NCBI GenBank assembly: GCA_947496375.1
Contig: CANMCY010000010.1
Coordinates: forward strand, 1-64,000
DNA from: Flavobacteriales bacterium
Lineage (GTDB): Bacteria > Bacteroidota > Bacteroidia > NS11-12g > UBA955
DNA length: 64,000 nucleotides
Reading direction: 5' to 3'
The translations under genes and the position numbers were made by a program. Position 1 is the first letter of the stretch. Every line of letters starts with the position of its first letter. This document shows, piece after piece, positions 5,743 to 54,342 of the stretch. Below the pieces are notes generated by a model. It searched no databases. It saw only the letters and a program-made list of their open reading frames with translations, and was not told the origin of the DNA.

Positions 5743-7473
5743 TTAATAAACCCCATACACTCGCATGGAGGTTACCGTAATTCTGCCTCCTGTGCAGCCT
5801 CCGAGGCCGAGCACACCGGATAAAACAACGTTTCCTGCCGTTGTGCTGGCCCCGGAAACAGATACCTTGAACGGAAAAATCCAGCCCGTATTGCCGGTGC
5901 CCCCGCCGGTTACACTTCGCCGCGCCTGGGTTGTGGTGCTTGGACCACTGGGCAAGGCAATGGTTACCTCTCCATAATTGAATGACCCTCCATTGGCCCC
6001 AATTTCCATGTAACCCTCTGCTTCAGCAATGATGCGGCTATACGTATTGGCTGCAAGGGAATAGGTTTTGATGGTTCCGCTGCTGGTCCCGGTGCCACAA
6101 GGCGAATAATTGACGTTGATGTTGCTACTTTGAGATTCATCCGCATTCAACAATACCACAGTGCCTTTGGCGGCTGAAGTTGATGTTCCTGCATTTACCA
6201 GGGCAATCCATTTTGCCCCTTCCCAGTAATAAAAAAGATTATCATCTATGTTGAAAACAAGCAAACCGGCAGACGGGCTTTTAATTGCCTGCATCTGTAT
6301 CTTTGTCATTCTTGGAAACAACACCCCTTTTTGGGTTGAATTCACCTGAAATAACGCTGCAGTATCTACTTTGGATGTCCCAATTGCCACAGGCCCTTTT
6401 GGGTAATAACTTACCAAACTGTCCTGTTTCCAGTTGGCTGTGTCGCCATCAGCCACACTAAAGGTTACTGAATTCCCTTTGGTAATTTCCATGGTTCTGT
6501 CCATTTTGCTGGCAGTTACCACAAGTTGTTGAGAATCTGCATCTGTGATGGTTCCACCCCCATTGCTCAGGGCTATCTGATTGCCTTTTTTGGTCAGAAC
6601 CTGTAGCTCATTAAAAGCACTGCTATCCGGCAAGTGGATTATGCCCCCTCCCTGACTGAGGATAATTCTGCCCCCGTTTCGGTTGATGTTTTGCAGCTCG
6701 TTGGTAGCGCTGCTATCCGGAACTGTGATAATACCACCACCTTGATTCAGAATAATCCTTCCCCCGTTTCTGCTGATGCTTTGCAGCTCATTGGTAGAAC
6801 TGCTATCGGGTAAAAACAATGTTCCACCATTCAGGCTCAGCAACAAACGACCACCCACGCGGGTAAGTTTCTGAAGTTCGTTGGTCGATAAACTGTCTCC
6901 ATCCGACACAGAAAACGAAACAGGTTTGTAATTGCCCAGTTTCAGTTGTCTGTTATTGCCTATCACGGTCAGTTGCAGCGAGTCTGAACTGCTGCCTGAT
7001 GACAATGCATAGGGCACACTCCAAAACTGTGTTGTGCCCATGTCTGCATACACCGGTTTCCATCCCCAGCGCGGTATTGAAGGCATTACACATATCTTTA
7101 GGTTGAAAAAATACTTATCGCTGCCCCAGGGGATATCCACAATCTTTTTATACAGGCCCGTCAAAAATGTGCCCTGACCGACAATAACCGTAAACATGCC
7201 GTCAGCATTGCTGTTCACCTTATGCTCATCACGATACATTACTGTTCCGGTGGCTGTACTTTTCAATATGGTGGTCTGCACCAGTATGCTGCGTTTAGCC
7301 GCCAGGTTGCCGCTTCCATCTCGGGCCACTGCCTGATATACCATGCCGCTGGGTGCAATCTGAGCCATTACCCCGGTGAAACTAAACATAGCCATAAACA
7401 ATGAAGCCCATAATGAGACAAATGGCTTTCTGTTCAATAAAAATTCGTACAACATACCTGCCGTTATTTTCAT
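5743..7473 (-). CDS. Fiber-like secreted protein with four 30-residue repeats and a unique head domain (fiber A)
   Basis: 576 residues from the ATG at 7473, which overlaps the preceding stop as TAATG. Order: signal peptide (1-37); an N-terminal domain common in Bacteroidota secreted proteins (PSGMVYQAVARDGSGN...RDEHKVNSN, about 41-160); four tandem repeats of exactly 30 residues (198-317; pattern NELQ..xRxGGRxxLxxGGGxxxLPDSS); a GVLFPRMT...AGLLVF segment about residue 380 seen in tail-fiber-like proteins; and a C-terminal Gly/Ser/Thr-rich beta domain (about 430-576) with two Cys. It is last in the operon. The architecture suggests an elongated, perhaps trimeric, surface fiber. Function unknown. 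Confidence 0.8.
   Translation of the reverse strand: MKITAGMLYEFLLNRKPFVSLWASLFMAMFSFTGVMAQIAPSGMVYQAVARDGSGNLAAKRSILVQTTILKSTATGTVMYRDEHKVNSNADGMFTVIVGQGTFLTGLYKKIVDIPWGSDKYFFNLKICVMPSIPRWGWKPVYADMGTTQFWSVPYALSSGSSSDSLQLTVIGNNRQLKLGNYKPVSFSVSDGDSLSTNELQKLTRVGGRLLLSLNGGTLFLPDSSSTNELQSISRNGGRIILNQGGGIITVPDSSATNELQNINRNGGRIILSQGGGIIHLPDSSAFNELQVLTKKGNQIALSNGGGTITDADSQQLVVTASKMDRTMEITKGNSVTFSVADGDTANWKQDSLVSYYPKGPVAIGTSKVDTAALFQVNSTQKGVLFPRMTKIQMQAIKSPSAGLLVFNIDDNLFYYWEGAKWIALVNAGTSTSAAKGTVVLLNADESQSSNINVNYSPCGTGTSSGTIKTYSLAANTYSRIIAEAEGYMEIGANGGSFNYGEVTIALPSGPSTTTQARRSVTGGGTGNTGWIFPFKVSVSGASTTAGNVVLSGVLGLGGCTGGRITVTSMRVYGVY
6523..6882 (-). repeat. Four 90-bp coding repeats in fiber A
   Basis: Residues 198-317 form four consecutive 30-residue units, each starting NELQ (KLTR, SISR, NINR, VLTK) and containing GGR/GNQ, a GGG (NGG in unit 1) turn and, except in the last unit, LPDSS or VPDSS. 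The two central units are nearly identical, suggesting recent duplication or homogenisation. Confidence 0.9.
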
Positions 7474-7901
7474 TAGGGTGCTTCTTTGAATTCCAAAACA
7501 CTGATATACAAAACACCGCTGCCGGCGGCAATGGTAGTGGCAGCTGGTAGCCACATAGGTGTTTTTTGTTCCCAGATGATGTACTCCGGTGACCATGAGA
7601 CGCCAAAGCCATGACTCCACTGGTAACTAGCGTTCTGGGCCGAGAAACGCTGTGCCCTCACCATCAGCTTGTTTCCATTAATAACGATTGAATCTGATAT
7701 ATTTACCGGTGTTGTGCCTGCAGGACAATCAGCCACCGGCCTTGAATACACAAAACTCTCAATTTTCCACACCCTGCCGGTCGGAACCGTATCGGTCCTG
7801 CTGCTTACCAGCCGAGACTTCCCGAATTGAAGATTCTGGGCAATCAGTTTTTGACATATCAATGTCAAGAATAGTATGGTCAAGCACAATATTTTTTGCA
7901 T
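7473..7901 (-). CDS. Array paralog P1: small secreted protein of the QNLQFG...LEF family
   Basis: 142 residues. The signal peptide is probably cut after MQKILCLTILFLTLICQKLIAQ, leaving NLQFGKSRLVSSRTDTVP. Shared family blocks: VPTGRVWKIESFVYS, one Cys (ADCPAGT), NISDSIVINGNKLMVRAQRF, then WEQKTPMWLP and a C-terminal YISVLEFKEAP. Its loop between RAQRF and the PEY block is the longest of the set (SAQNASYQWSHGFGVSW). The stop overlaps the start of fiber A (TAATG), which suggests translational coupling. No T9SS sorting domain. Fold and role unknown; probably an all-beta domain. Confidence 0.85.
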   Translation of the reverse strand: MQKILCLTILFLTLICQKLIAQNLQFGKSRLVSSRTDTVPTGRVWKIESFVYSRPVADCPAGTTPVNISDSIVINGNKLMVRAQRFSAQNASYQWSHGFGVSWSPEYIIWEQKTPMWLPAATTIAAGSGVLYISVLEFKEAP

Positions 7902-7925
7902 ATTATTTGTTTATTCTCTGCTTTT

Positions 7926-8342
7926 TTATGGTGTTTCTTTAAATTCCAGTATGCTGATATACCTGACACCGGTTCCTGCGGCAAGGGTTGTACCGGAAGG
8001 CAGCCACATGGGTGTTTTTTGTTCCCAAAGAAAAAATTCCGGACCGTATGTATCCGATCTCCACGGATGCCAAAGACCTGCAAACCGCTGTGCACGCACC
8101 GCAGTATTAAAACCATTTAGCACAATAGAATCAGATAAATTGATGGATGTAGAACCTCCGGGACAATCGGCCAGTGTTCTGGAATAAACAAAACTCTCTA
8201 TCTTCCATATTTTTCCGGAAGGTACTGTATCCTGCTTACTTCCCACCAGCTTTGTAAGCCCAAATTGAAGGTTCTGAGCAGATAATATTCCGGCTTGACA
8301 ACCTATCAACATGAGCATTACAGACTTTAAATATTGATGCAT
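7926..8342 (-). CDS. Array paralog P2
   Basis: 138 residues from the ATG at 8342; the in-frame ATG at 8378 would overlap the upstream gene and add a polar stretch ahead of the signal peptide MHQYLKSVMLMLIGCQAGILSAQ. The mature start is NLQFGLTKLVGSKQDTVP. Conserved Cys is in ADCPGGST. The loop reads GLWHPWRSDTYG before PEFFLWEQ. It ends LEFKETP. The gap to P1 is 24 bp. Confidence 0.85.
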   Translation of the reverse strand: MHQYLKSVMLMLIGCQAGILSAQNLQFGLTKLVGSKQDTVPSGKIWKIESFVYSRTLADCPGGSTSINLSDSIVLNGFNTAVRAQRFAGLWHPWRSDTYGPEFFLWEQKTPMWLPSGTTLAAGTGVRYISILEFKETP

Positions 8343-8364
8343 TGGCCTTTTATGTTTTTGAATA

Positions 8365-8817
8365 CTAGGGTGTTTCACTAAATTCTAATACATTGATATA
8401 CAAAACACCCCTGCCCGCCGACAAGGTTGTTTTGGCAGGTAACCACATCGGGGTCTTTTGTTCCCAAATGATAAACTCAGGGGAGGAAGCGGAAGTGGCA
8501 TTTACATAATAATTAACGATGGTACCAACAAAGCGCTGAGCCCTAACAGGCATCTTATTGCCATTCAACACAATAGAGTCGGTAATATTGACTGGCGTGG
8601 TATTGGTAGGACAATCGGTAATGGCTTTGGAGAACATAAAGCTTTCAACCTTCCATACCTTACCTACAGGTACCGTATCTGTCTTACTATCTATCAGTTT
8701 AGACTTGCCAAACTGCAGGTTTTGAGCACCCACCTGATGAGTATAACCAATCGTGGCCAGGATGACGATTAATAAACAGCTATTTTTCACGGAATCTATA
8801 CATTTAAGGGGTTTCAT
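8365..8817 (-). CDS. Array paralog P3
   Basis: 150 residues from the ATG at 8817, which overlaps the end of P4 by 14 bp. A GTG nine codons later would give a cleaner signal peptide (VKNSCLLIVILATIGYTHQ) and cannot be excluded. Mature start NLQFGKSKLIDSKTDTVP; Cys in TDCPTNTT; loop VGTIVNYYVNATSASS, which lacks the Trp seen in most copies; end LEFSETP. First 40 mature residues are nearly identical to P4. Confidence 0.82.
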   Translation of the reverse strand: MKPLKCIDSVKNSCLLIVILATIGYTHQVGAQNLQFGKSKLIDSKTDTVPVGKVWKVESFMFSKAITDCPTNTTPVNITDSIVLNGNKMPVRAQRFVGTIVNYYVNATSASSPEFIIWEQKTPMWLPAKTTLSAGRGVLYINVLEFSETP

Positions 8818-9229
8818 TAAACTCCAATACATTGATATACAACACCCCACCTGCTGCCGACAACGTAGTTCCGGCAGGAATCCACATGGGCGTTTTTTGC
8901 TCCCAAATTACCAAATTGGGCGAAGTAGCTGCTACCCCTTGACTGCCCGCCTGATAGGTTACCGTCCCTGTAAATCGCTGTGCCCTTACCCCTATTTTGT
9001 TTCCATTCAGTATAATTGAATCTGTAATATTAATGGCGGTGCTACCGGTAGGACAATTTGCCGGAGGCAGCTTATATACAAAACTCTCTATCTTCCATAC
9101 CTTGCCGGAAGGCACTGTATCCCTTTTACTGTCTATCAGCTTAGACTTGCCAAACTGCAAATTTTGCGCATGCACCTTAACAACGCATACAGAAATAAAA
9201 AAAACAGCTATTAAACGTAACGTCTTCAT
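8804..9229 (-). CDS. Array paralog P4
   Basis: 141 residues with a clear signal peptide (MKTLRLIAVFFISVCVVKVHAQ). Mature start NLQFGKSKLIDSKRDTVP; Cys in ANCPTGST; loop TGTVTYQAGSQGVAAT followed by the unusual SPNLVIWEQ in place of PEF. Near the end AAGGVLYINVLEF replaces the common AGRGVLYIS. The end is LEFNETP. It sits 8 bp downstream of P5. Confidence 0.85.
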   Translation of the reverse strand: MKTLRLIAVFFISVCVVKVHAQNLQFGKSKLIDSKRDTVPSGKVWKIESFVYKLPPANCPTGSTAINITDSIILNGNKIGVRAQRFTGTVTYQAGSQGVAATSPNLVIWEQKTPMWIPAGTTLSAAGGVLYINVLEFNETP

Positions 9230-9237
9230 TTCTGGAA

Positions 9238-9648
9238 TTATGGTACCTCTTTAAACTCAATCACATTAATAAATTTCACGCCTCGGCCCGCCGACAGCGT
9301 GGCCCCTGCCGGTAGCCACATGGGCGTTGTTTGCTGCCAAAGTATGTATTGTGGTGAAATGGCTCCCCAAGAATTGGATGACGGTCCGTACATACGCTGT
9401 GTTCTCACGGCCATTCTGTGACCATTTAGTACGATAGAATCATCAATATTGACAACAGAATAGCTGCCGGGACAGTTGGCCATGGTATTGGAAAAAATAA
9501 ACCCTTCAACCTTCCAGGCCCTACCTGAAGGAACAGTATCCACCTTGCTGTCAATCAACTTGGATTTCCCATATTGGAGGTTTTGAGAATACAACCCCAT
9601 GGCAAAGACCATCATTAACAAACTGCAAAATATATGTTTTTTCATCAT
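9238..9648 (-). CDS. Array paralog P5
   Basis: 136 residues. Signal peptide MMKKHIFCSLLMMVFAMGLYSQ, then NLQYGKSKLIDSKVDTVP. With P6 it forms a distinct pair: NLQYGK instead of NLQFGK, KVDTVP instead of KTDTVP, RAWKVEGF instead of KVWKIESF, and a short loop (YGPSSNSWGAIS) before PQYILWQQ. Cys in ANCPGS. End IEFKEVP. The shared deviations suggest P5 and P6 arose by a recent duplication within the array. Confidence 0.85.
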   Translation of the reverse strand: MMKKHIFCSLLMMVFAMGLYSQNLQYGKSKLIDSKVDTVPSGRAWKVEGFIFSNTMANCPGSYSVVNIDDSIVLNGHRMAVRTQRMYGPSSNSWGAISPQYILWQQTTPMWLPAGATLSAGRGVKFINVIEFKEVP

Positions 9649-9663
9649 GCGTAAATTCTGTGA

Positions 9664-10068
9664 TTATGGCGACTCTTTAAATTCTATTATATTGATATAA
9701 CTCACACCACGGCCGGCTGCCAGCGTAGTGCCTGCAGGCAACCAAAGTGGTGTTTCCTGCTTCCATATTAAATATGTGGGAGCGGTAGAACCACGTGAAG
9801 TGTAAGTAGGTCCGAAAAATCGCTGGGCCCTCACCGCAAAATTATTTCCATTCAAGAGAATTGAATCAGTAATATTTACCTCGGTTGAACTGCTGGGACA
9901 GTTAGCTATGCTATTCGTAAAGACGAATCCCTCCAGCTTCCATGCTCTCCCTGTTGGAACCGTATCCACCTTACTGTCTATCAGCTTGGCCTTTCCATAC
10001 TGCAGATTTTGGGCAGATAATGCGGTTATTCCCAAAGTAGTTACGATAAATACAATTAGCATTCTCAT
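9664..10068 (-). CDS. Array paralog P6
   Basis: 134 residues. Signal peptide MRMLIVFIVTTLGITALSAQ, then NLQYGKAKLIDSKVDTVP. It pairs with P5 (see there) in RAWKLEGF and in the short loop, here FGPTYTSRGSTA before PTYLIWKQETPLWLP. Cys in ANCPSSST. End IEFKESP. The WKQ variant also appears in the outlying P14. Confidence 0.85.
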   Translation of the reverse strand: MRMLIVFIVTTLGITALSAQNLQYGKAKLIDSKVDTVPTGRAWKLEGFVFTNSIANCPSSSTEVNITDSILLNGNNFAVRAQRFFGPTYTSRGSTAPTYLIWKQETPLWLPAGTTLAAGRGVSYINIIEFKESP

Positions 10069-10082
10069 AGTTTACAACGCTT

Positions 10083-10532
10083 TTAAGGGGCCTCTTTAAA
10101 TTCCAGCACACTGATATATAGCACGCCCCTACCCGCAGACAACGTGGTACCTGCAGGTAGCCAAAGTGGTGTCTTTTGCTCCCATAATAAATACTCGGGA
10201 GCCAGGGATGTACCCCATCCCCTAAGGTCTTCTACCCCGGAAAAACGCTGTGCCCGCACCGCCATTTTGTTGCCGTTCAACACAATGGAATCTGTAATAT
10301 TCACCACAGATCCACCAGTTGGGCAATTTGCCAGACTTTTACTGTAGGTAAAATTTTCTATCTTCCATATTTTCCCAACCGGAACCGTGTCCGTCTTACT
10401 GTCGATGAGCTTGGTTCTTCCGAATTGCAGGTTTTGGGCAGATAAACGGGTGCCCATGCCTAGAACCAACAACATGATCATATACCTAAAAAAGAGCATA
10501 AAACGGTGTAGCTTCCCGATATATTCAACCAT
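10083..10532 (-). CDS. Array paralog P7
   Basis: 149 residues from the ATG at 10532, 7 bp after P8 ends. Other in-frame ATGs at 10550, 10538 and 10499 exist; 10499 would give a shorter signal peptide (MLFFRYMIMLLVLGMGTRLSAQ). Mature start NLQFGRTKLIDSKTDTVP; Cys in ANCPTGGS; loop SGVEDLRGWGTSLA before PEYLLWEQ; end LEFKEAP. A 44-bp stretch (10396-10439) is identical to P8. Confidence 0.82.
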   Translation of the reverse strand: MVEYIGKLHRFMLFFRYMIMLLVLGMGTRLSAQNLQFGRTKLIDSKTDTVPVGKIWKIENFTYSKSLANCPTGGSVVNITDSIVLNGNKMAVRAQRFSGVEDLRGWGTSLAPEYLLWEQKTPLWLPAGTTLSAGRGVLYISVLEFKEAP

Positions 10533-10539
10533 AAACATA

Positions 10540-10959
10540 TTATGGAACATCTTTAAACTCTAATATACTAATATACAACACACCTCGACCTGCCGCAAGC
10601 GTAGTCCCCGCAGGAAGCCACATGGGCGTTTTTTGCTCCCATACCAGAAACTCCGGTGAGGGTGATGTGTTCCAGTTACGCCAATCAACCAGCCCTGCAA
10701 AGCGCTGTGCCCGCACCGATAGCTTATTGCCATTCAGCACAATCGAGTCTGAAATGTTGACCGTTGCCCCACTGCCCGGACAGTCAGCCAGCGTCTTGGA
10801 ATATACGAAGCTCTCAATCTTCCATATTTTACCACTGGGTACGGTATCCGTTTTACTGTCGATGAGCTTGGTTCTTCCGAATTGCAGGTTTTGGGCCTGG
10901 ATAGTTCCATAGCTTAACAATAAAACCGGTAAAAAAAATGCCATTAGTCGCTCTTTCAT
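10540..10959 (-). CDS. Array paralog P8
   Basis: 139 residues from the ATG at 10959, chosen for its compact signal peptide (MKERLMAFFLPVLLLSYGTI); an in-frame ATG at 10995 would add 12 residues. Mature start NLQFGRTKLIDSKTDTVP, identical to P7 at protein level and over 44 bp of DNA. Cys in ADCPGSGA; loop AGLVDWRNWNTSPS before PEFLVWEQ; end LEFKDVP. Confidence 0.84.
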   Translation of the reverse strand: MKERLMAFFLPVLLLSYGTIQAQNLQFGRTKLIDSKTDTVPSGKIWKIESFVYSKTLADCPGSGATVNISDSIVLNGNKLSVRAQRFAGLVDWRNWNTSPSPEFLVWEQKTPMWLPAGTTLAAGRGVLYISILEFKDVP

Positions 10960-11007
10960 TCTGCAAACTAGGTTATTATTCGTAAATGTGCTCACTTAAA
11001 ATTGCTA

Positions 11008-11427
11008 TTACGGCACATCATTAAACTCCAATACACTAATATATAACACACCACGGCCCGCGGCCAAAGTGGTTCCTGAGGGCAGCCACATGGGCGTTTT
11101 CTGCTCCCAAAGAAAAAACTCCGGCGACCAGGCATACCCGTAGCGCCAGTTATCATGCAGACCAGAAAATCGCTGTACCCTCACAGCAAGTTTGTTCCCA
11201 TTGATGGCGATTGAATCGGAGATATTAACATTGGAGGCCCCGGTAGGACAATCCGGTGCAGTTTTTGAAAAAATAAAACTCTCTACCTTCCACACCTTAC
11301 CGGCAGGAACCGTATCGGTTTTACTTTCGATGAGCTTAGTTTTCCCAAATTGCAGGTTTTGCCCTTTCAAAGCCATCCCTGACAACATCAGCACCAAGAC
11401 TGTAATTAATCTTATTTTTGTATGCAT
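11008..11427 (-). CDS. Array paralog P9
   Basis: 139 residues. Signal peptide MHTKIRLITVLVLMLSGMALKGQ, then NLQFGKTKLIESKTDTVP. Cys in PDCPTGAS; loop SGLHDNWRYGYAWS before PEFFLWEQ; end LEFNDVP. It begins a subgroup (P9-P13) whose loops start SGL(H/Y/F). The gap to P8 is the longest within the array proper (48 bp with the chosen P8 start). Confidence 0.85.
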   Translation of the reverse strand: MHTKIRLITVLVLMLSGMALKGQNLQFGKTKLIESKTDTVPAGKVWKVESFIFSKTAPDCPTGASNVNISDSIAINGNKLAVRVQRFSGLHDNWRYGYAWSPEFFLWEQKTPMWLPSGTTLAAGRGVLYISVLEFNDVP

Positions 11428-11433
11428 AAAACT

Positions 11434-11883
11434 TTAAGGGGTTTCATTAAACTCCAGAACACTGAGGTAAAAAACACCGCGACCTGCCGCCAACGTAGAC
11501 CCCGCCGGCAACCACATGGGCAGCTTTTGTTCCCATACCAAAAATTCAGGAGCATGGGCAAAACGATAAGTTGTGTTTTCATACAACCCTGAAAAACGCT
11601 GCGCCCGCACCATCATTTTGGTTCCGTCCAGCGCAATAGAATCTGAAATATTGATGGAAACACCGCTTGTGGGACAGGTAACAATGCCTTGCTTATATAT
11701 GATGGTCTCTACCTTCCAAACCTTTCCTGTGGGTACAGTATCTGTTTTGCTTCCAATTAGTCTGGTTTTGCCAAACTGCAGATTCTGGGAATAGGCAGAA
11801 CCGACAAGAAATAAACCCGTCAACAACATTATCGCTTTGTATATTTTTTGCACAATGATTGTGTTTTGTTTGTTTTTAAACAT
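11434..11883 (-). CDS. Array paralog P10
   Basis: 149 residues with a long n-region before the hydrophobic stretch (signal ends LFLVGSAYSQ). The ATG overlaps the stop of P11 as TAATG. Mature start NLQFGKTRLIGSKTDTVP. It carries VETIIYKQGIVTCPTSG where most copies have VESFVYSK. Loop SGLYENTTYRFAHA before PEFLVWEQKLPMWLP; end LEFNETP. Confidence 0.85.
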   Translation of the reverse strand: MFKNKQNTIIVQKIYKAIMLLTGLFLVGSAYSQNLQFGKTRLIGSKTDTVPTGKVWKVETIIYKQGIVTCPTSGVSINISDSIALDGTKMMVRAQRFSGLYENTTYRFAHAPEFLVWEQKLPMWLPAGSTLAAGRGVFYLSVLEFNETP

Positions 11884-12323
11884 TAAGGTGATTCCTTAAA
11901 CTCCAGCACGCTAATATACATTACACCCCTGCCAGCAGCGATGGTAGTGCCGGTCGGAAGCCACATCGGGGTTTTTTGTTCCCACAGAAAAAACTCAGGA
12001 CCCCACGTATGATTGCTCCATGCCTGATGTAAACCCGAAAACCGCTGTGCCCTCACCATCAGATTTCTGCCGTTTAATATGATAGAATCCGAAATATTTA
12101 GGGATGTATTGGAGGTAGGACAAACGGCAATAGACTGCGAATACACAAAACTTTCTATCTTCCATACTTTGCCTGCCGGCACGGTATCGGTTTTGCTATC
12201 GATAAACTTGGTTTTACCAAACTGCAGGTTCTGTGCGACAAGATTTTGGCTTACAACCAACAATCCCATCAGCAGGGCGGATTTAAGCAATATCAGTATG
12301 CTATTTCTCATCGGTTTATTCAT
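11883..12323 (-). CDS. Array paralog P11
   Basis: 146 residues. The signal peptide begins MNKPMRNSILILLKSALL and ends VSQNLVAQ; mature start NLQFGKTKFIDSKTDTVP. Cys in AVCPTSNT; loop SGLHQAWSNHTWG before PEFFLWEQ; AGRGVMYISVLEF instead of GVLYIS; end FKESP. Its TAA stop shares one base with the ATG of P10. Confidence 0.85.
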   Translation of the reverse strand: MNKPMRNSILILLKSALLMGLLVVSQNLVAQNLQFGKTKFIDSKTDTVPAGKVWKIESFVYSQSIAVCPTSNTSLNISDSIILNGRNLMVRAQRFSGLHQAWSNHTWGPEFFLWEQKTPMWLPTGTTIAAGRGVMYISVLEFKESP

Positions 12324-12329
12324 TTTGCA

Positions 12330-12797
12330 TCAAGGGGTTTTCTTAAATTCCAACACACTGAGGTACATTACCCCTCGGCCCGCTGCCACCCTTGTTCCGG
12401 AGGGAAGCCACATGGGCAATTTTTGTTCCCATACGATAAATTCCGGAGAAAACGCTTGTGAACTCCAGCCCGGATGCAAACCCGAGAAACGCTGCGCCCT
12501 CACCATGGTCCCTTTACCGTCTAACATGATTGAATCGGAAATATTAATGTAATTGCTGCTGGTGGGGCAATGGGTAACTCCCTGCGAATACACAATGCTC
12601 TCCACCTTCCAGATCCTGCCAGTAGGTACCGTATCGGTTTTTGAATCCACCATGCGGGCATCCACAAATTCCAGGTTCTGAGCAATCAATCCACCGGCTG
12701 TCATGAATAACAAAAAACATATCAACCCCCTGATACTATTTTTAACAGAAGCTCTCTCACTCCATCTGCGCTGTAATATTGCTTTCATTGACGGCAT
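12330..12797 (-). CDS. Array paralog P12 (diverged N-terminus)
   Basis: 155 residues from the ATG at 12797; an ATG at 12788 or a GTG further in (VKNSIRGLICFLLFMTAGG) are alternatives, the latter resembling the possible P3 GTG start. Unlike its neighbours the mature protein begins NLEFVDARMVDSKTDTVP rather than NLQFGKTKL. Cys in THCPTSSN; loop SGLHPGWSSQAFS before PEFIVWEQKLPMWLP; end LEFKKTP, the only copy with Lys-Lys there. Confidence 0.83.
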   Translation of the reverse strand: MPSMKAILQRRWSERASVKNSIRGLICFLLFMTAGGLIAQNLEFVDARMVDSKTDTVPTGRIWKVESIVYSQGVTHCPTSSNYINISDSIMLDGKGTMVRAQRFSGLHPGWSSQAFSPEFIVWEQKLPMWLPSGTRVAAGRGVMYLSVLEFKKTP

Positions 12798-12802
12798 TTA
12801 CA

Positions 12803-13216
12803 TCAGGGCGCTTCATTAAATTCCAGGATGCTGATATACATTACTCCCCGGCCGGCGGCAAGGGTTGTACCGGCCGGCAGCCACAATGGTGTTTTCTGCT
12901 CCCAAAGAAAGAATTCCGGGGCCCATGCGTAATTATCCCAGGAGTTTTCAAACAACCCCGAAAAGCGCTGTGCCCTTACCATCATTTTATTTCCGTTAAA
13001 AACAATCGAATCCGAAATATTCAGCGTGGTTCCGCTGGTTGGGCAGTTAACGATGGCCTGAGAATACACAAAACCTTCCATTTTCCAGATCTTGCCTTTG
13101 GGCACGGTGTCGGTTTTGGTATCGATAAGCTTGGTCTTCCCAAATTGTAGATTCTGAGCACCCAGTCCGGAAACTGCTGAAATAAAAAACACCCAAACAA
13201 GTAGCTTCGTCGACAT
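12803..13216 (-). CDS. Array paralog P13
   Basis: 137 residues from the ATG at 13216, 13 bp after fiber B ends; an upstream in-frame ATG at 13321 lies inside fiber B and would bury the signal peptide (MSTKLLVWVFFISAVSGLG). Mature start NLQFGKTKLIDTKTDTVP; VPKGKIWKMEGF; Cys in VNCPTSGT; loop SGLFENSWDNYAWA before PEFFLWEQKTPLWLP; end LEFNEAP. Confidence 0.85.
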   Translation of the reverse strand: MSTKLLVWVFFISAVSGLGAQNLQFGKTKLIDTKTDTVPKGKIWKMEGFVYSQAIVNCPTSGTTLNISDSIVFNGNKMMVRAQRFSGLFENSWDNYAWAPEFFLWEQKTPLWLPAGTTLAAGRGVMYISILEFNEAP

Positions 13217-13229
13217 GATGCGAACGGGA

Positions 13230-14528
13230 TTAAAATCCTTGGGTAGTGTAAATGAGGGTGTTGCTGCTGCCCCCGCCACTGCCACTTCCCGAACTGAGGC
13301 GTATCCAGGCCGTACCTTCATAATAGTAGAAACCGCCGGTTTTATCCGTTTGGAAAACCAGCAAGCCCGTAGCCGGTTTGCTAATCAACAAACGCTGTGC
13401 CTCCGTCATTCGGGGAAACAAAACACCCTTGGTAGTAGAGTTCACCTGAAATGCTGCGGTAGAATCTACCGTTGAAGTTCCAATCCCCACGCTGCCTTTA
13501 TTGTAGTAGGTGGTGGTTTTGGCCTGCTTCCAGTGCGTTGTATCGCCATCTGCCACATCAAAACTCACCTTATTGCCCTTGCTGATGCGTATGGTGCGCT
13601 CCAGTTTATTGGTATCGATGGCCAGGGTCTGCGAATCCGCATCGGTAACGGTTCCACCTCCAATGCTCAGGGATATCTGATCTCCCTTTTTGGTCAATAC
13701 CTGTAACTCGTTCACAGCACTGCTGTCGGGCAAGTTGATTATGCCTCCTCCTTGGTTGAGAATAACTCTTCCTCCAATGCGGGTAATGCTTTGCAATTCG
13801 TTGGTGGAACTGCTGTCCGGAAGGGTGATTACCCCTCCGCCCATGCTCAAAGATATTCTGCCACCGGTTCTGATGATGCTCTGCAATTCATTCACAGCAC
13901 TGGAATCGGGAAGACTAACCATTCCGCCATTCAAACTCAGCAACAAGCGACCGCCGGTACGGGTAAGCTTTTGAATTTCATTGGTTGCAACACTGTCTCC
14001 ATCCGAAACTGAGAATAAAATGGGCTGATAACCGCCTAGCTTGAGCTGCCTGTTGTTGCCAATCACTTTCAACTGCAGTGAATCTGCACTGCTGCCCGAA
14101 GACAAGGCATAAGGAACGCTCCAGAACTGGGTAGTACCCATGTCTGTGTAGACAGGTTTCCAGCCCCAGCGAGGAATGGAAGGAGTAACGCATATTTTCA
14201 GGTTGAAGAAGTATTTGTCGCTGCCCCAGGGAATGTCCACAATCTTTTTGTAAAGACCTGCCAAGTAGGTTCCCTGACCCACAATAACCGTAAACATGGC
14301 GTCAGCATTGCTGTTCACCTTGTGTTCATCGCGATACATCACGGTTCCGGTGGCACTGCCCTTGTGAATGGTGGTTTGCACCAAGATGCTGCGCTTGGCA
14401 GCCAGATTGCCACTTCCATCCCGGGCTACCGCCTGGTAAATCATTCCGTTAGGCGATGTTGTCTGTGCCTTTACATTTTCGGCTCCCACAAGCCAAAAGA
14501 GCACAAAAAATGGTATTATTCTTTTCAT
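13230..14528 (-). CDS. Fiber-like secreted protein with four 30-residue repeats, headless (fiber B)
   Basis: 432 residues, a paralog of fiber A. Signal peptide (1-22, ...AENVKAQ); the same N-terminal domain (PNGMIYQAVARDGSGN, about 26-150); four 30-residue repeats (183-302); GVLFPRMTEAQ...TGLLVFQTD...YYYEGTAWIRL; then a short Gly/Ser tail SGSGSGGGSS ending LIYTTQGF. The large C-terminal domain of fiber A is missing; whether it was lost or never present cannot be told here. It lies between P14 and P13, so fibers and small paralogs are interleaved and probably co-expressed. Confidence 0.8.
   Translation of the reverse strand: MKRIIPFFVLFWLVGAENVKAQTTSPNGMIYQAVARDGSGNLAAKRSILVQTTIHKGSATGTVMYRDEHKVNSNADAMFTVIVGQGTYLAGLYKKIVDIPWGSDKYFFNLKICVTPSIPRWGWKPVYTDMGTTQFWSVPYALSSGSSADSLQLKVIGNNRQLKLGGYQPILFSVSDGDSVATNEIQKLTRTGGRLLLSLNGGMVSLPDSSAVNELQSIIRTGGRISLSMGGGVITLPDSSSTNELQSITRIGGRVILNQGGGIINLPDSSAVNELQVLTKKGDQISLSIGGGTVTDADSQTLAIDTNKLERTIRISKGNKVSFDVADGDTTHWKQAKTTTYYNKGSVGIGTSTVDSTAAFQVNSTTKGVLFPRMTEAQRLLISKPATGLLVFQTDKTGGFYYYEGTAWIRLSSGSGSGGGSSNTLIYTTQGF
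13623..13982 (-). repeat. Four 90-bp coding repeats in fiber B
   Basis: Residues 183-302 are four 30-residue units beginning NEIQKLTR, NELQSIIR, NELQSITR and NELQVLTK, in the same order and phase as in fiber A. The first and last units of the two fibers match each other better than they match their own internal units, so the four-unit array predates the duplication of the fiber gene. Confidence 0.9.
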
Positions 14529-14567
14529 TTTATTAGTGTTTTATTAGTATTTTATTGGTGTTTTTAA

Positions 14568-14951
14568 TTACGGTACCTCTTTAAATTCGATTATACTGAC
14601 ATATTTAACCCCCACATCCGCTTTCACAATGGTTCCTGAGGGCAGCCAAATCGGTAAATCCTGTTTCCAAAAAAAGTGATCAATGTTGCCAGCGTCAATG
14701 CGGTGCGCCCTTACCACAAAAGCATCCCCATTTACAATGATTTTATCGTCCTCACCCCACGAAAGATTGGGATAAGTGCAAAGATTGCGGCTAAACAGAA
14801 AACTCTCTATTTTCCATACCCGGCCCGTAGGAACCGTATCGGCAGTAGAAGAAACCAGCTTGGCTTTGCTAAACTGAAGATTTTGAGCATTGGATTCGGA
14901 AACCATGCAGCCGATCATCAAAACCATGAATATTCTTAGGATGTTACTCAT
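14568..14951 (-). CDS. Array paralog P14 (short, most diverged)
   Basis: 127 residues, signal peptide MSNILRIFMVLMIGCMVSES. Mature start NLQFSKAKLVSSTADTVP. It keeps VPTGRVWKIESFLFSR, VRAHR, WKQDLPIWLPSGT and the LEF-type end (IIEFKEVP). The Cys-Pro motif is altered (CTYPNL), NISDSI is replaced by WGEDDKI, and the loop is nearly absent (IDAGNIDHFFWKQ). It lies apart from the other 13, on the promoter-proximal side of fiber B, and could represent the unelaborated ancestral form. Confidence 0.8.
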   Translation of the reverse strand: MSNILRIFMVLMIGCMVSESNAQNLQFSKAKLVSSTADTVPTGRVWKIESFLFSRNLCTYPNLSWGEDDKIIVNGDAFVVRAHRIDAGNIDHFFWKQDLPIWLPSGTIVKADVGVKYVSIIEFKEVP

Positions 14952-14962
14952 TTCTGCCGGGA

Positions 14963-15478
14963 TTATGATTTCAGCTTAATCACAGAAAAAACTCGGTTCA
15001 ACCCCTCTGCTCCGGTAACCTTCACAAAATAATTACCCTCGGCATGCGCTGCAATCGATATACTTATTCGCTGAATGTCAGACAACTCCACATTCATACT
15101 TTTGATAAAGCGACCCGTATTGTCATAGATTTCCACCCCGGTAATTCCTGAACCCTCGAGCCAGTATTGGCCAAAACCCGGGTTGGGATACAGGCGCAAA
15201 TCCGATACCTCAGGCACTTCTATGCAGTTTTCCCTGAAATTGCCGGCGGCATTATACAGTTCTGATTGTCCGTAGATATGGCCACCCTGAACCATGATGC
15301 ATCGGGTACGGCTGTCTTGACACACGATGGCACCACCTGAATTGGCGCTTGTACTATCGGATATGGCAAATGAAGCAAAACCGCCAAACACCAGTGTCTG
15401 GGCATTAACAGCCGAGAACATTGAAAACAGCAGCCCGATGAGAATGATGTTATTTCGCACGGTAATGAATTTGTACAT
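14963..15478 (-). CDS. Secreted protein with T9SS type A sorting domain
   Basis: 171 residues from the ATG at 15478, overlapping the upstream lipoprotein gene by 29 bp. Signal peptide (MYKFITVRNNIILIGLLFSM...NAQ), a short central region with three Cys (VCQDSRTRC, ENC) and a C-terminal Por-secretion domain: LRLYPNPGFGQYWLEG, VEIYDNTGRFI, GNYFVKVTG, VFSVIKLKS. The domain should direct export through the type IX system and surface attachment. It is the only product in this operon with a recognisable T9SS signal. The central part matches no family I know. Confidence 0.8.
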   Translation of the reverse strand: MYKFITVRNNIILIGLLFSMFSAVNAQTLVFGGFASFAISDSTSANSGGAIVCQDSRTRCIMVQGGHIYGQSELYNAAGNFRENCIEVPEVSDLRLYPNPGFGQYWLEGSGITGVEIYDNTGRFIKSMNVELSDIQRISISIAAHAEGNYFVKVTGAEGLNRVFSVIKLKS

Positions 15479-36845: not shown

Positions 36846-38695
36846 TTGGGATTTGCATTAGCAATGATTTCTTCGATGCTGCCTGAAGCCACGGCGTGGT
36901 AACCTTTACGGGCTTCGCTGAAAATCTGCTCCGCCAATGCCTTGCCCTTGGCGGTTTTCACGAGGTTCTTGTAAATGGGCAGCAAAAATTTCCTTCTCCC
37001 CACCGATTTCAGGAATACCGCCATATCGGGGTAAGCGGTTTCATACCCATTTTTCACCGAAAGGGTGTACCAGTCGCAGGCAATTTCGGCATTGCCAATG
37101 CCGGTAAATGTAAAGGCCTTATCCAGCGCCGCCATCTCCTCCACAGACAACGCAGGCAACCCCCGCAGCAAATGCAGCCAGTGGTGGGTGCTGTAGTCTT
37201 TGGTATGAATATCCGCGGGGTTGCGGCTTTTTGTATAGGTTACAATATCCGTTTCCACGCGTTGCAGTTCCTTGCTCTTCACCACAGGTGCATCCTTGGG
37301 CAATCCGGTGCCGTAGATCCACGCATTCAGGTCTATCTGCCCGGGATGCTTATTGAGCAGTTTTTCGTTTAGATAGGCGATAAAACGCGTGGTGTTCATG
37401 GTCTGGAAGGCATGCGTTTTGAAATAGTCATTCAAAAAGGCATCCCAGGCGGGGCGTCCCACCACTTCCTCAATGCGGCGCAGAAAAAAGCGGCCTTTTT
37501 CGTAGGCAATGTCGGTAACACCATCGTCGGGGTTGCGGCCATCGAGGTTCAGAAACAGCTTGGTTTCGTCAGGGGTGGTTTGCATGAAATCATCGAGGGT
37601 GTGCTGCAGTTCCCCACGGCCAATCTCTGCCAGCATTTCGGCATAATCACGGCCGTAAATTTTTTCCATGATGCGCTGCTCGAAATACACGGTAAAGCCC
37701 TCATTCAGCCAGAAGTCGCTCCAGGTTTCGTTCGTAACCAGGTTGCCGCTCCAGCTATGCGCCAGTTCGTGCGCTACCAGACTCACCAGGCTGCGGTCGC
37801 CGGCAATGATGGTGGGTGTGGCAAAGGTGAGCACCGGATTTTCCATGCCGCCAAACGGAAAGCTCGGGGGCAATACCAGTACATCATAGCGGCCCCAGGC
37901 ATAGGGCCCGTAGAGCGCTTCGGCGCTGTCTATCATGCTTTGCATGTCGGCCAGTTCCCACACCGATTTCTTCAGCATACCCGGCTCGGCATACACGCCA
38001 CTGTTGCGCCCCAGCGTGGTAAACTCCACATCGCCCACCGCCAGCGCCATCAGGTAGCTTGGAATGGGTTTGGTCTGTTTAAATGTGTATTTGCCTTCAG
38101 CGTTTTTGCTGGTGGGGTTTTCGGCACTCATCATGGCCATTAGGTGGGGCGGCACTTCGATGCTGGCATCGTAGGTAAAGCGCACAGCCGGGCAATCCTG
38201 CAGGGGAATCCAGGTGCGGGCCAGAATGGCCTGGCTTTGCGAGAATAAAAACGGGTTCTTTTTGTCGTGGGTTTGTTCGGGCGACAGCCATTGCAGGGCT
38301 TCCGATTCTGGGGTGGTGTGGTAGGCCACAGACACTTCCCTGGTATTTTTTTCTATGGGAATGATGAGGGCTGCGCCAAGTACGGTGTCATCCGGGCCAA
38401 TTTCAAACGAAACTTCTTTGATTTTCCCATTCGCATCGGTCACAGCCACATGATCCACCTTCAGGGTTTTATGGTCCAGGATAATGTGCGAGGCCCCGGC
38501 TGTATTCTCAATTTGCAGGGTAGCGGAGCCCCAGAGTTCTTTTTTGCTGAAATCCACCTTCAGGTGTAAGCTTAGGTGCTTCAGTTTCACCTCTGCATAA
38601 TTGGAAAAGCTATGGTTTTTAACGGTCATTTTCTTGGGTTTAGGGGTGGTGCAGGCCAGCAGGCAAAGCACGGAAAGCGACAACAGAAATTTCAC
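36842..38695 (-). CDS. M1 family aminopeptidase lipoprotein (LTA4H-like)
   Basis: 617 residues. Lipobox LCLLAC (Cys15), so predicted membrane anchored. N-terminal saddle domain, then GGMEN (substrate amino-terminus binding) and the zinc motif HELAHSWSGNLVTNETWSDFWLNEGFTVY (about 305-333). The C-terminal armadillo-like domain resembles leukotriene A4 hydrolase. It probably cleaves N-terminal residues from peptides in the periplasm, complementing the S46 dipeptidase. The upstream gene-free region (38696-38879) is AT-rich. Confidence 0.93.
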   Translation of the reverse strand: MKFLLSLSVLCLLACTTPKPKKMTVKNHSFSNYAEVKLKHLSLHLKVDFSKKELWGSATLQIENTAGASHIILDHKTLKVDHVAVTDANGKIKEVSFEIGPDDTVLGAALIIPIEKNTREVSVAYHTTPESEALQWLSPEQTHDKKNPFLFSQSQAILARTWIPLQDCPAVRFTYDASIEVPPHLMAMMSAENPTSKNAEGKYTFKQTKPIPSYLMALAVGDVEFTTLGRNSGVYAEPGMLKKSVWELADMQSMIDSAEALYGPYAWGRYDVLVLPPSFPFGGMENPVLTFATPTIIAGDRSLVSLVAHELAHSWSGNLVTNETWSDFWLNEGFTVYFEQRIMEKIYGRDYAEMLAEIGRGELQHTLDDFMQTTPDETKLFLNLDGRNPDDGVTDIAYEKGRFFLRRIEEVVGRPAWDAFLNDYFKTHAFQTMNTTRFIAYLNEKLLNKHPGQIDLNAWIYGTGLPKDAPVVKSKELQRVETDIVTYTKSRNPADIHTKDYSTHHWLHLLRGLPALSVEEMAALDKAFTFTGIGNAEIACDWYTLSVKNGYETAYPDMAVFLKSVGRRKFLLPIYKNLVKTAKGKALAEQIFSEARKGYHAVASGSIEEIIANANPK

Positions 38696-38879
38696 CCTAC
38701 AAATGTGGGGAAGGAATGGGGAAATAAAAAGTTTTGGTATTTTGGTTTTGTTTGTTATTTTTGTACGATTTTATGCTACTTTTAAAACTCGCTGCATAAT
38801 TGAACAATAAATTAAGTTATCAGCAAATAAGTGAAAATAATCTAGTTACCAACAATATAAAAACATATAAAGAAACCAG

Positions 38880-40175
38880 ATGAACATATATAAAGAGTGG
38901 GGGTTTTATGAAAGTCCATTTAACACAAGTGCACTTCAATCTAATGAAAATGGCATGTCTCTTCTTGTGGGTCGAGACACAGAAATAGGACAAATATTAA
39001 GAAGACTGTTTACACCAACAGCTTCAGTTACTATTGAAGGATTAAATGGTGTAGGAAAAACAAGTTTAGTTAATGTTTCACTGTTTAAGGCTTATCAAAA
39101 TTTTTTTGATGAAGAGACTACATCTTTATTTATTCCTTGTGGTAAAACATTTCAAATCACAGCTGAAACAACTGTAGATGAGTTTGTGTCAAATCTTTAT
39201 TTAGAAATAGCTCAAACACTAATAAGACGTTCAGAAGAACTAAAAAATCTTGGATTCAATCTGCCTAGCAACTCAATAAGTATTGATAAATGGCTAAACT
39301 CCACACATGTAACTACTTGGCAAGCCACATTAGGCCCAATGGGTGGAGGAAAAAATATTGAGACCAATACAACTAATGGATTTACAGAGAGTGGATTTAA
39401 AGTTCAAATCGACAATTGGTTAAAAGAAATCTTCCCAAACGAAGAAAATGGGGCTGTCGTTTGTATAATAGATAATCTGGAGCTTTTAGAGACTTCTGAA
39501 CAGGCAAAAAGACAATTGGAAAGGCTACGAGATGAAATTTTCAATTTAACAGGCATAAGATGGGTTATGTGTGGTTCATTAGGTATAGTAAAAAGTGTCG
39601 CATCAACCCCACGACTCGAAGGATATCTTCACAATCCAATTGAAATATCCTCAGTAAAACGTCAATTTATTAAGAACTTATTTGAAAAAAGAATAAAATA
39701 TTTTTCAACTGATACTAATCAAACTGGATATTTGCCATTAACAATTGATGATATTGATTTTCTTTATGAAGTTTTAAATGAAAATTTAAGAAACACAATC
39801 CATTACTGCGACCAATATTGTTTGTATTTTGTCGATAAAGGTATAACAGCGAAAACAAATAGTGATAAATCCAAATTCTTTTTGAGTTGGTTGCAAGGAG
39901 AGGCTGACTCAATAATGTCTTCAGTTGAAGGTCAACTTCGTCCTAGGGCTTTAAAACTATTTAATGACATAATTACTCATGGTGGTATTTTCTCTCCAAG
40001 CGATTTTGAAAAGTTTGAATTCAACAGTGTTGCTGCCTTAAGACCTCAAGTTTTAGAATTAGAGCGAGTAGCACTGCTTTCTAGCACAATAGATGAATCA
40101 GATAATAGAAGAAAAACAATTCAGGTGACCCCAAAAGGTTGGCTTACTAGCTTTGCTTTAAGACAGAAGAAATAA
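38880..40175 (+). CDS. AAA/ORC-like ATPase in AT-rich accessory stretch
   Basis: 431 residues. N-terminus MNIYKEWGFYESPF leads into LLVGRDTEIGQILRRLF and Walker A GLNGVGKTS (about 54-62); Walker B is VVCIIDNLEL (about 195-205); GIRWVMCGSLGIV is sensor-like. The C-terminal region (RPRALKLFNDIITHGGIFSPSDFEKF...LERVALLSS...QVTPKGW) looks like a winged helix. The architecture resembles Orc1/Cdc6-STAND type ATPases often found in mobile or defence loci. Strong AT bias in codon choice compared with the M1 gene upstream suggests transfer. No partner is recognisable next to it. Confidence 0.7.
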   Translation: MNIYKEWGFYESPFNTSALQSNENGMSLLVGRDTEIGQILRRLFTPTASVTIEGLNGVGKTSLVNVSLFKAYQNFFDEETTSLFIPCGKTFQITAETTVDEFVSNLYLEIAQTLIRRSEELKNLGFNLPSNSISIDKWLNSTHVTTWQATLGPMGGGKNIETNTTNGFTESGFKVQIDNWLKEIFPNEENGAVVCIIDNLELLETSEQAKRQLERLRDEIFNLTGIRWVMCGSLGIVKSVASTPRLEGYLHNPIEISSVKRQFIKNLFEKRIKYFSTDTNQTGYLPLTIDDIDFLYEVLNENLRNTIHYCDQYCLYFVDKGITAKTNSDKSKFFLSWLQGEADSIMSSVEGQLRPRALKLFNDIITHGGIFSPSDFEKFEFNSVAALRPQVLELERVALLSSTIDESDNRRKTIQVTPKGWLTSFALRQKK

Positions 40176-40297
40176 AATTGTTTCATAATTAAAATATCCT
40201 CCTAATTTAGTTGGAAATGTTATTTTAAGCACTTTTAGAAAAGTTTTTTATCTGTATATTAAAAGCTATATATTTTTTAAGTTTTAATAAATATAAA

Positions 40298-40906
40298 ATG
40301 AATATAATCTGGATTAACACCGAAAATGGAGAAGATAAGATTATTGCCATAAGCAATGAAAAGATTCTTAAGGCAAATCCCAAAACAGAGAAGATTGAAC
40401 TATGTATAACTGATATTAAAAATGATATCGTCAACAAGGATGTATTTGGCATTCCCTTATCTTACATCAAATCAATACAACTGCAGGAAAACAAAAAATA
40501 TATACAGGTATTCTACGGTCAGGATTCCGAAGAATATTTAAGAATTAATGATGATGCAAAAAGAAAAGAGATATTTGAATATTTCAAAGACAATATATCT
40601 TCAACAGAATACAGAATTGAAGCCTTTAACAATACAAAGTCGGCGAAAAAACCTTTGATTGCAATAGTTATTGTTATTGTCCTATTTATATGGACATTGT
40701 CTGTGGCATCTGGGGTAGAATCAGGCAAAGAATATGAAGTACTAGGAAATAAAAGATCCATAGCATCTTTTGTTCTGGCTATAGCACAATTCGGAACAAT
40801 AAAAATAACCCTTGCTTTTTTATTACTGCTCGGATTAACTACCCGTAAATTTATGAGAAATATTCATAACAATACCAATATTTATATTATTGAAATTATT
40901 AGATAG
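40298..40906 (+). CDS. Unrecognised membrane protein
   Basis: 202 residues. The N-terminal 120 residues are a soluble, Lys/Ile-rich domain with alternating strands (IIWINTENGEDKIIAISNEKILKANP, IQLQENKKYIQVFYG). Two hydrophobic segments follow (PLIAIVIVIVLFIWTLSVASG about 125-145; IKITLAFLLLLGLT about 168-181). I recognise no family. AT-rich like the ATPase upstream, but with a 122-bp gap, so co-transcription is uncertain. Confidence 0.6.
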   Translation: MNIIWINTENGEDKIIAISNEKILKANPKTEKIELCITDIKNDIVNKDVFGIPLSYIKSIQLQENKKYIQVFYGQDSEEYLRINDDAKRKEIFEYFKDNISSTEYRIEAFNNTKSAKKPLIAIVIVIVLFIWTLSVASGVESGKEYEVLGNKRSIASFVLAIAQFGTIKITLAFLLLLGLTTRKFMRNIHNNTNIYIIEIIR

Positions 40907-40910
40907 CCCC

Positions 40911-40954
40911 CCTTGCCCATAGGGTGGGGTTTAAACCCCACCCTATGGGCAAGG
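40911..40954. repeat. Left REP-like palindrome of the RAYT unit
   Basis: Perfect 22+22-bp inverted repeat centred on TTTAAA, beginning 36 bp before the transposase ATG. It shares a 22-bp central core (centre GGGGTTTAAACCCC) with the right palindrome; the outer arms (CCTTGCCCATA...) differ. Confidence 0.9.
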
Positions 40955-40989
40955 ACAAGACCACCACCATTTCAACAAGCATTCTCATC

Positions 40990-41451
40990 ATGTCTAAATC
41001 GTATTATACAATCTGGATTCACGCCATTTGGTCCACCAAATACCGGTTGCCATTGATACAACCGCATTTTGAAGATAAAATTCATGATTTTATAAGAGAA
41101 CAATTGCGTCAAATGGGTTGTCCGGTTAGGATTATCAACGGCATGCCCGACCATGTTCATTGCCTGTTTTTGTTAAATCCACAAAAAACTATAGTTGAGG
41201 TAATCAAACATATCAAAGGCAGCAGCGCTCATTTTGTGAACGAACAAGAACTAATGGATATAAAATTTGCCTGGCAGACGGGCTATGCGGCATTTTCTGT
41301 TTCGGCATCGGGAGTTGAACCGGTATTCCAATACATTAAAAACCAAAAAACCCATCATCAAAAGAATAATTTCCAGGAGGAATATGATGAGTTTATTAAA
41401 TTATACAATGCCGAGAAGCATCAACCCTCGCCCCCATCGGGTGGGGTTTAA
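40990..41451 (+). CDS. RAYT/IS200-IS605-like Y1 transposase
   Basis: 153 residues from the ATG at 40990; the frame is open further upstream through the left palindrome but that part encodes no family sequence. HUH motif in MPDHVHCLF (His55, His57); catalytic Tyr115 in VFQYIKNQKTHH, as in the Y1_Tnp family. Length fits an intact enzyme. The stop codon TAA (41449-41451) lies in the TTTAAA centre of the right palindrome. No tnpB or accessory gene is present. Domesticated REP-associated transposases cut palindromic single-stranded DNA. Confidence 0.9.
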   Translation: MSKSYYTIWIHAIWSTKYRLPLIQPHFEDKIHDFIREQLRQMGCPVRIINGMPDHVHCLFLLNPQKTIVEVIKHIKGSSAHFVNEQELMDIKFAWQTGYAAFSVSASGVEPVFQYIKNQKTHHQKNNFQEEYDEFIKLYNAEKHQPSPPSGGV

Positions 41452-41464
41452 ACCCCACCCGATG
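41435..41464. repeat. Right REP-like palindrome of the RAYT unit
   Basis: Perfect 15+15-bp inverted repeat centred on TTTAAA, with the same 22-bp core as the left copy and a different flank (CATC/GATG). It contains the transposase stop codon. Confidence 0.9.
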
Positions 41465-41553
41465 AGGACGATGAGGCATCGAAGCCCCACAATTACAACA
41501 AATTTTTATTCATTTAATATCTATTCCTTATTTTCACAAAAAAATAGGACTAT

Positions 41554-53800: not shown

Positions 53801-54204
53801 TTGTAGACAAGTTTGCCTTCACCCGCTTCGAACCCAGTGGCATGGTAGAAGGTCACCCCAACATCAAAAACTCAACCTCTATTGTTGACTATATCTTCCG
53901 CCTGCTTGGCTATGAATACCTGGGCCGAGAAGACCTGGTGCAGGTGAAACCCAGCGCATACACCAGCAACGATGCTGCCGAAGCACCGGTTGTCAGTGAG
54001 TTTGTACCCATGTTCACCCCCGAGCCCATGCCCACTGAAAGTGCGGCCATGCTGGAAACCGGCGGAGGCGTGAAAAACATGCAGGATCACCTGCGTGAGG
54101 TACAGAGCGATGCACCCGCCTGCAACGTATGCGGTCACATCACCGTGCGCAGCGGCACATGCTACAAATGCCTTAACTGCGGCAACAGTCTGGGCTGCAG
54201 CTAA
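50881..54204 (+). CDS. nrdJ: Adenosylcobalamin-dependent (class II) ribonucleotide reductase
   Basis: 1107 residues. N-terminal region with [29 protein letters not shown]; catalytic loop [21 protein letters not shown] with Cys391 in the NPCSE motif as the predicted thiyl-radical residue; [33 protein letters not shown]; and a C-terminal TSCPD-like region ([35 protein letters not shown]). It ends with Cys-rich CNVCG...[13 protein letters not shown], probably the swinging dithiol/zinc part. Oxygen-independent dNTP synthesis that needs B12. Strong GC-rich codon usage suggests high expression. Confidence 0.96.
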
Positions 54205-54225
54205 GCGAATTAATTAGAACCAATA

Positions 54226-54264
54226 GAAAAGGGAAGCTGAATGGCTTCCCTTTTTTTGTGGGGT
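54226..54264 (+). terminator. nrdJ terminator, also left 39-bp direct repeat
   Basis: GGGAAGC...GCTTCCC stem with TGAATG loop and a seven-T run, 22 bp after the nrdJ stop. The whole 39-bp segment recurs identically at 55032-55070. Confidence 0.9.
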
Positions 54265-54342
54265 GATAAAACTTGCAATGGTTGTCTAAGATACCATTCA
54301 CTCAGCAGCTAGAATCATATTGGGATTTTATTCTATTTTTTG

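Follow-up and report, generated by a model that had tools for sequence, protein, structure and literature searches.

A tandem array of 14 small proteins of one family, each built on a conserved scaffold with a variable segment, lies among fibre genes in an aquatic Flavobacteriales bacterium, and here as in related loci a fibre gene directly before such proteins ends in a conserved C-terminal tail. We partly infer that these S proteins would dock on tipless MAT-like fibres and supply them with alternative binding tips, a reading to which we give an even chance. The stretch of DNA analysed, here called the window, comprises 64,000 nt (assembly GCA_947496375.1, contig CANMCY010000010.1, positions 1-64,000, forward strand). 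The S genes are 14 minus-strand ORFs between 7473 and 14951 which align end to end and hence form one family, and a genome search has found these 14 copies alone in the bacterium's own genome. Each S protein consists of a signal peptide, judged by eye, and one mature domain of 105-121 residues beginning with QNL. With the gene starts adopted here, the genes are separated by gaps of 5-54 bases or overlap by up to 14 bases, except that a 1348-base stretch with big1 separates P14 from the others. In the order of transcription, a small T9SS-sorted protein is followed by P14, big1, the other 13 S genes, and big2 (Table 1). A small protein carrying the T9SS sorting domain of type A lies directly before the fibre cluster in four loci (window 14963-15478, L037:8322-8912, L042:7038-7538, and L088:6592-7113), and it is a possible anchor. 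Elsewhere in the window, two stretches of low G+C content (38001-42000 and 54001-58000; 0.31-0.39 against about 0.47) contain, as judged by eye, one ATPase-like and one helicase-like gene along with a short transposase-like ORF, and they look like acquired islands.

Table 1. Features of the S protein cluster in the window, and loci with and without a tailed fibre gene
Feature	Coordinates or loci	Strand	Basis
Small T9SS-sorted protein (type A sorting domain), next gene upstream of the cluster	14963..15478	-	
S protein P14, upstream of fibre gene big1; loop of ~4 residues at 14685-14696	14568..14951	-	
big1, MAT-like fibre without a tip domain; has a signal peptide, a MAT_N-like domain (14088-14456), and a repeat shaft	13230..14528	-	
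big1 C-terminal tail NTLIYTTQGF, abutting the stop codon	13233..13262	-	
S protein, loop 12920-12961	12803..13219	-	family alignment
S protein, loop 12447-12485	12330..12797	-	family alignment
S protein, loop 12000-12038	11883..12323	-	family alignment
S protein, loop 11551-11592	11434..11883	-	family alignment
S protein, loop 11125-11166	11008..11427	-	family alignment
S protein modelled by AlphaFold2, loop 10657-10698; in-frame start possible up to 10995	10540..10953	-	
S protein, loop 10200-10241	10083..10550	-	family alignment
S protein, loop 9781-9816	9664..10068	-	family alignment
S protein, loop 9355-9390	9238..9648	-	family alignment
S protein, loop 8921-8971	8804..9229	-	family alignment
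S protein, loop 8482-8529; in-frame start possible up to 8850	8365..8805	-	
S protein, loop 8043-8081	7926..8378	-	family alignment
S protein, loop 7590-7643	7473..7901	-	family alignment
big2, sister fibre; own C-terminal domain of ~140 residues (about 5746-6170) in place of the tail	5743..7476	-	
Loci with a tailed gene	window, L030, L035, L037, L042, L081, L082, L083, L084, L085, L087, L088, L096, L097, L175/L194		
Six short or divergent S runs without a tailed gene	L032, L086, L087 minus, L091, L094, L099		

The preliminary description of this DNA had reported a fixed scaffold with a variable segment between the VRAQRF and PEF motifs, and this is borne out by the alignment. Over 13 copies, with P14 left out of the calculation of identity, pN, and pS, the mean pairwise identity is 0.65 in the N flank, 0.22 in the loop, and 0.72 in the C flank, a contrast far above chance, and the corresponding pN values are 0.21, 0.57, and 0.16. 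The three loops that had been quoted as examples are genuine (8043-8081, 11551-11592, and 8482-8529), and P14 does nearly lack the loop, as had been stated. On the other hand, the segment from VRAQRF to PEF is 12-18 residues long in the 13 copies instead of the 9-17 given, and the flanks, described as almost invariant, are conserved but less strictly so, the 14-copy alignment having 29 invariant columns. A second, milder variable stretch is found in the turn after a conserved Cys-Pro (mean identity 0.48, pN 0.38).

Synonymous divergence among the window copies is near saturation, with a pS of 0.72-0.82 in every segment and a flank pS of 0.59 even in the closest pair. As a result, dN/dS between these copies is unreadable. 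The age of the copies also means that the conservation of the flanks is attributed to purifying selection and not to recent gene conversion. At the same time, near-saturated synonymous sites do not fit recent retrohoming, as would occur in the target of a diversity-generating retroelement. A comparison of separation in gene order with sequence distance among the window copies gave no clear signal.

The loop might simply be unconstrained, a floppy turn in redundant paralogs with no role in recognition. In line with this, the signal peptides diverge as much as the loop (identity 0.16; pN 0.60 versus 0.57), and the loop is predicted to be flexible. However, Trp accounts for 15 of 145 loop residues (10.3%), compared with 39 of 1339 in the flanks, 2 of 345 in the signal peptides, and a Trp content of 1.6% in ten further proteins of the window. 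Trp, Tyr, Phe, and His together make up 37 of 145 loop residues (25.5%) versus 139 of 1339 flank residues (10.4%). The excess of loop Trp over base composition has a binomial p of ~6e-8, a value that is too small, as related copies share some aromatic positions; the enrichment is not explained by random drift. Loop distance between copies also tracks C-flank distance (rho 0.50, p 0.0025), while no clear correlation is seen with N-flank distance (rho 0.13, p 0.19), and in relatives the middle of the protein is under purifying selection (see below). We consider an unconstrained loop quite unlikely.

The AlphaFold2 model of one window copy (10540-10953; 30 sequences, mean pLDDT 88) is an eight-strand jelly roll with strands at residues 3-11, 22-31, 45-53, 56-66, 81-86, 91-93, 98-101, and 105-115. 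The loop lies between strands 4 and 5 (56-66 and 81-86) and has a pLDDT of ~56, whereas most of the scaffold reaches 90-98; it is predicted to be a flexible, inter-strand part of an otherwise confident jelly roll. Jelly-roll strand order would place the loop 67-80 at one end of the sandwich, together with the turn 32-44, within which the second variable stretch lies. A relative with a long middle (L036) gives a weak model (mean pLDDT 66.7) in which the outer strands are confident and low-confidence inserts at 44-69 and 95-130 occupy the same two inter-strand segments that vary in the window copies.

Comparison of the S model with PDB and BFVD by Foldseek has given nothing at E <= 0.001, and therefore no fold family is named beyond the jelly roll. 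The best VIA-align match extends over 88 residues (rmsd 3.5) with a Z of 6.7. The nucleoplasmin core, the TNF-like GITRL, and the cupins resemble the model in the overall eight-strand arrangement but, at an identity of 8% and a Z below 8, in that common arrangement alone. None of the 14 S proteins has a Pfam match better than E 0.1, and there was no match for the two proteins scanned against NCBIfam or for the one scanned against PHROGs. A PDB profile match to Tako8 (E 6e-4), which we take to be a designed propeller, was judged to be due to chance. A phage origin was rejected after searches of viral contigs and phage records found no relative.

The S family is sparsely distributed. Whole-genome searches have found it in 1 of 7 genomes of the genus (the bacterium's own alone), in 4 of 70 genomes of the family at a lax threshold, which includes one false and one doubtful match, in 2 of 108 of the order, in 20 of 395 of the class, and in 1 of 395 genomes of a phylum sample, again its own alone. 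One match (genome G027) was discarded because it falls inside an apparent isoleucyl-tRNA synthetase gene, which we assigned by recognition. Thirteen S loci found in genome contigs are all metagenome-assembled by title. Long S arrays occur in six genomes of a single genus within the class. In four genomes (loci L036, L038, L039, and L040), a single long S protein with a highly conserved middle is encoded beside a RecQ-type helicase-like gene.

The long arrays, which belong to another bacterial family than the window's species, include two groups of orthologous clusters, L081/L082/L083/L096 and L084/L085. Each pair of genomes shares 14-18 reciprocal best pairs, and their gene order is collinear (rho +1 or -1). 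Orthologs, which come from different species, agree at 76-87% of positions in the variable middle, and paralogs at 16-17% (measured for the paralogs of L081, L083, and L084); one L081 pair that runs off its contig, with an unaligned end, was kept and lowers the identities slightly, and eight ORFs with no recognised mature start were left out. Pooled dN/dS is 0.055-0.17 in the middle and 0.03-0.13 in the flanks where measurable. By gene, none of 75 measurable values among 116 ortholog comparisons exceeds 1 (maximum 0.42), the remainder being saturated (40) or lacking synonymous change (1), and the comparisons among L081/L082/L083/L096 are mutually non-independent. The middle of the relatives' S proteins thus evolves somewhat faster than the scaffold, yet each version is kept; single codons in the middles could be under positive selection.

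These comparisons bear on the earlier proposal of binding-site diversification, as in recognition or immune-evasion proteins. The part of it that stands is the fixed frame with an exposed, variable loop of low pLDDT and with an excess of Trp. Immune or phage evasion through continuing diversification of exposed loops could draw on the loop pN, which exceeds the flank pN by a factor of 2.6 to 3.5, and on the enriched aromatic residues. Against this explanation stand the conserved and collinear middles of the relatives, the lack of any measurable ortholog dN/dS above 1, and the age of the window copies, and we regard it as the most improbable of the explanations considered. The S arrays are best read from these comparisons as a fixed repertoire and not as ongoing immune evasion.

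The bacterium's own genome encodes 10 MAT-like fibres. All 10 fibre N-terminal domains tested match NF053851 (Bdello_MAT_N) with E values of 9e-4 to 1.5e-12, covering approximately the first half of the model, and score below its 60-bit cut-off (19.1 and 26.1 bits for the window domains, 34-48 for the eight others). As all matches are below the cut-off, the fibres are described as MAT-like and are not filed as MAT. In the window's family, fibres related to those of Bdellovibrio are common (26 of 69 genomes). The shafts of big1 and big2 are identical at 302 of 420 residues (72%); after this shared shaft big2 runs on into its own domain, and big1 stops at its tail. Among eight fibre ends scanned, including that of big2, one has an S74 domain and four have matches to Lcl_C, two of the latter above the cut-off. 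The eight further fibre genes of the genome (L131-L138) have several Lcl_C-like ends and one S74 end. Collagen-like repeats in the L087 shaft suggest, by sequence, a trimer.

Of 1744 stop-to-stop ORFs no shorter than 100 aa, 17 have the strict pattern L[IV][YH][TL]xxGF at the C-terminus. All 17 directly precede an S gene, in 15 distinct loci and two duplicates (L089 and L090), an association weakened by kinship because L081/L082/L083/L096 and L084/L085 are orthologous clusters. The tail varies to LVHTVKGF in L088 and LVYTTAGF in L175/L194, and L091 has a distant variant only. By comparison, the tail is absent, even under a looser pattern, from all 44 MAT_N ORFs of 43 stretches with no S genes, of which ~39 have a true end (four run off the stretch and one is a fragment). 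This control covers the eight other fibres of the own genome and leaves out the window's two places, the S-bearing G019 contig, and a G035 fragment. Within S-bearing loci, the six MAT_N ORFs with no S gene behind them likewise lack the tail. Counted from the side of the S genes, 16 of 38 runs lie behind a tailed gene, with the window's 13-gene run counted behind big1 and two of the 16 being duplicates. The other 22 comprise three at contig ends, three parts of the L081/L082 clusters, 10 singletons, and six short or divergent runs (Table 1). In the six genomes with long arrays, the tailed gene is short and is not recognised as MAT_N.

In several relatives the S domain is circularly permuted, so that its C-part precedes its N-part, and a Gly-rich domain or a repeat fibre comes next (L030, L065, two in L066, L067, L071, and L174/L175). 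Such a domain opens larger Gly-rich or fibre proteins, for example L030:911-1723 and L067:1285-3099 and also in L066, L071, and L175; a neighbouring gene of L081 carries the Pfam domain Gly_rich_2. The permutation implies that the natural ends of the S domain are likely close together, with the free end near the variable side, and the Gly-rich domains of the permuted S proteins of L175/L194 are attached near the variable-loop end. In L175/L194, a fibre with no MAT_N match and with the variant tail precedes four permuted S domains, and therefore the tail goes with the scaffold rather than with the loop.

The S proteins might instead be secreted binders, each with a fixed specificity of its own (glycan capture, for example), and simply be co-expressed with the fibre, whose tail would have another role such as sorting or anchoring. 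This is consistent with the S singletons that are conserved between species with no fibre nearby (L036, L038, L039, and L040), with the T9SS-sorted protein beside the fibre, which indicates that surface traffic is involved, and with the fact that Foldseek and VIA-align return generic jelly rolls only. However, none of the 44 related fibre ORFs from the window's bacterial family has the tail, which is therefore no general sorting signal of such fibres. In L194 the tail also stands directly before S genes although the fibre is otherwise dissimilar. We consider mere co-expression unlikely, while giving it appreciable weight.

The S proteins could also be structural subunits of a pilus or filament with varying surface loops, the fibre gene encoding a base or adaptor. 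A tandem layout would suit the joint expression of such subunits, and the model has a generic likeness to the jelly roll of a Bacillus endospore appendage (7a02; Z 4.5, rmsd 4.0, 81 residues), a score that many other structures equal. A single Cys is present in every one of the 14 mature S proteins, at residue 38 (36 in P14) within the second variable turn; such a lone Cys in a secreted protein suggests intermolecular linkage. A filament is very unlikely, though, given that only one to two S genes lie behind the tailed fibre in L030, L037, L042, and L097 and that the middles reach 100 residues or more in relatives.

In the preferred reading of S proteins as docking tips, the conserved scaffold would serve as the docking module and the loop end would meet the target. 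The big1 tail LIYTTQGF would bind the scaffold, and the S proteins, encoded apart from the fibre, would form its tips, either as alternatives or in mixtures. The loops may differ in the surface ligand that they bind, for instance a glycan or protein on prey, particles, or host cells. Against this reading, P14, which adjoins big1, has almost no loop, 22 of the 38 S runs lack a tailed gene before them, the tailed gene of the long-array genomes is short and goes unrecognised as MAT_N, and the ortholog comparisons were made in another bacterial family. A fuller version, to which we give somewhat less than an even chance, is a split-tip fibre: the tipless MAT-like shaft with a universal C-terminal dock (LIYTTxGF) would take any of a dozen or more jelly-roll tips, a single shaft gene would thereby display a complete set of binding specificities fixed in evolution, and Gly-rich adhesins would join through fusion to a permuted scaffold. 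If right, this would be a simple modular way for a bacterium to equip one fibre type with many adhesive specificities. The undescribed S family would also gain a testable role with a short, readily checked peptide dock, and the C-terminal tail would become a marker for such systems in environmental Bacteroidota.

A literature search has found no paper on these S arrays, the one relevant match being a paper on Bdellovibrio MAT fibres (PMC10769870). By sequence, MAT fibres are the nearest relatives of the fibre described here. The two share a related N-terminal domain (NF053851, below the cut-off), a long repeat shaft, and a constant base with a diversified end, and an S74 end is present in a sister fibre of the own genome. 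The tips of MAT fibres are covalent C-terminal domains, and no separate tip genes are described in the passages of that paper considered here. In contrast, the fibre before the array is tipless and has a conserved tail, and the tip-like domains are separate tandem genes. A second parallel is the T2-type phage adhesin gp38, which is a separately encoded tip at the end of the trimeric gp37 fibre, with a constant scaffold and hypervariable loops (PMC12892980). The likeness lies in a separately encoded protein at the fibre end, as proposed here, in the pairing of a constant scaffold with variable loops, and in the Gly-rich domains of the permuted S relatives. However, gp38 is a phage protein, whereas the S array is bacterial and places many paralogs behind a single fibre, and gp38 is a polyglycine lattice, whereas the S scaffold is a predicted jelly roll with no Gly-rich lattice by sequence. 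The S proteins are not gp38 members, and no sequence relation is claimed; by analogy, they would work like gp38, with many tips per shaft.
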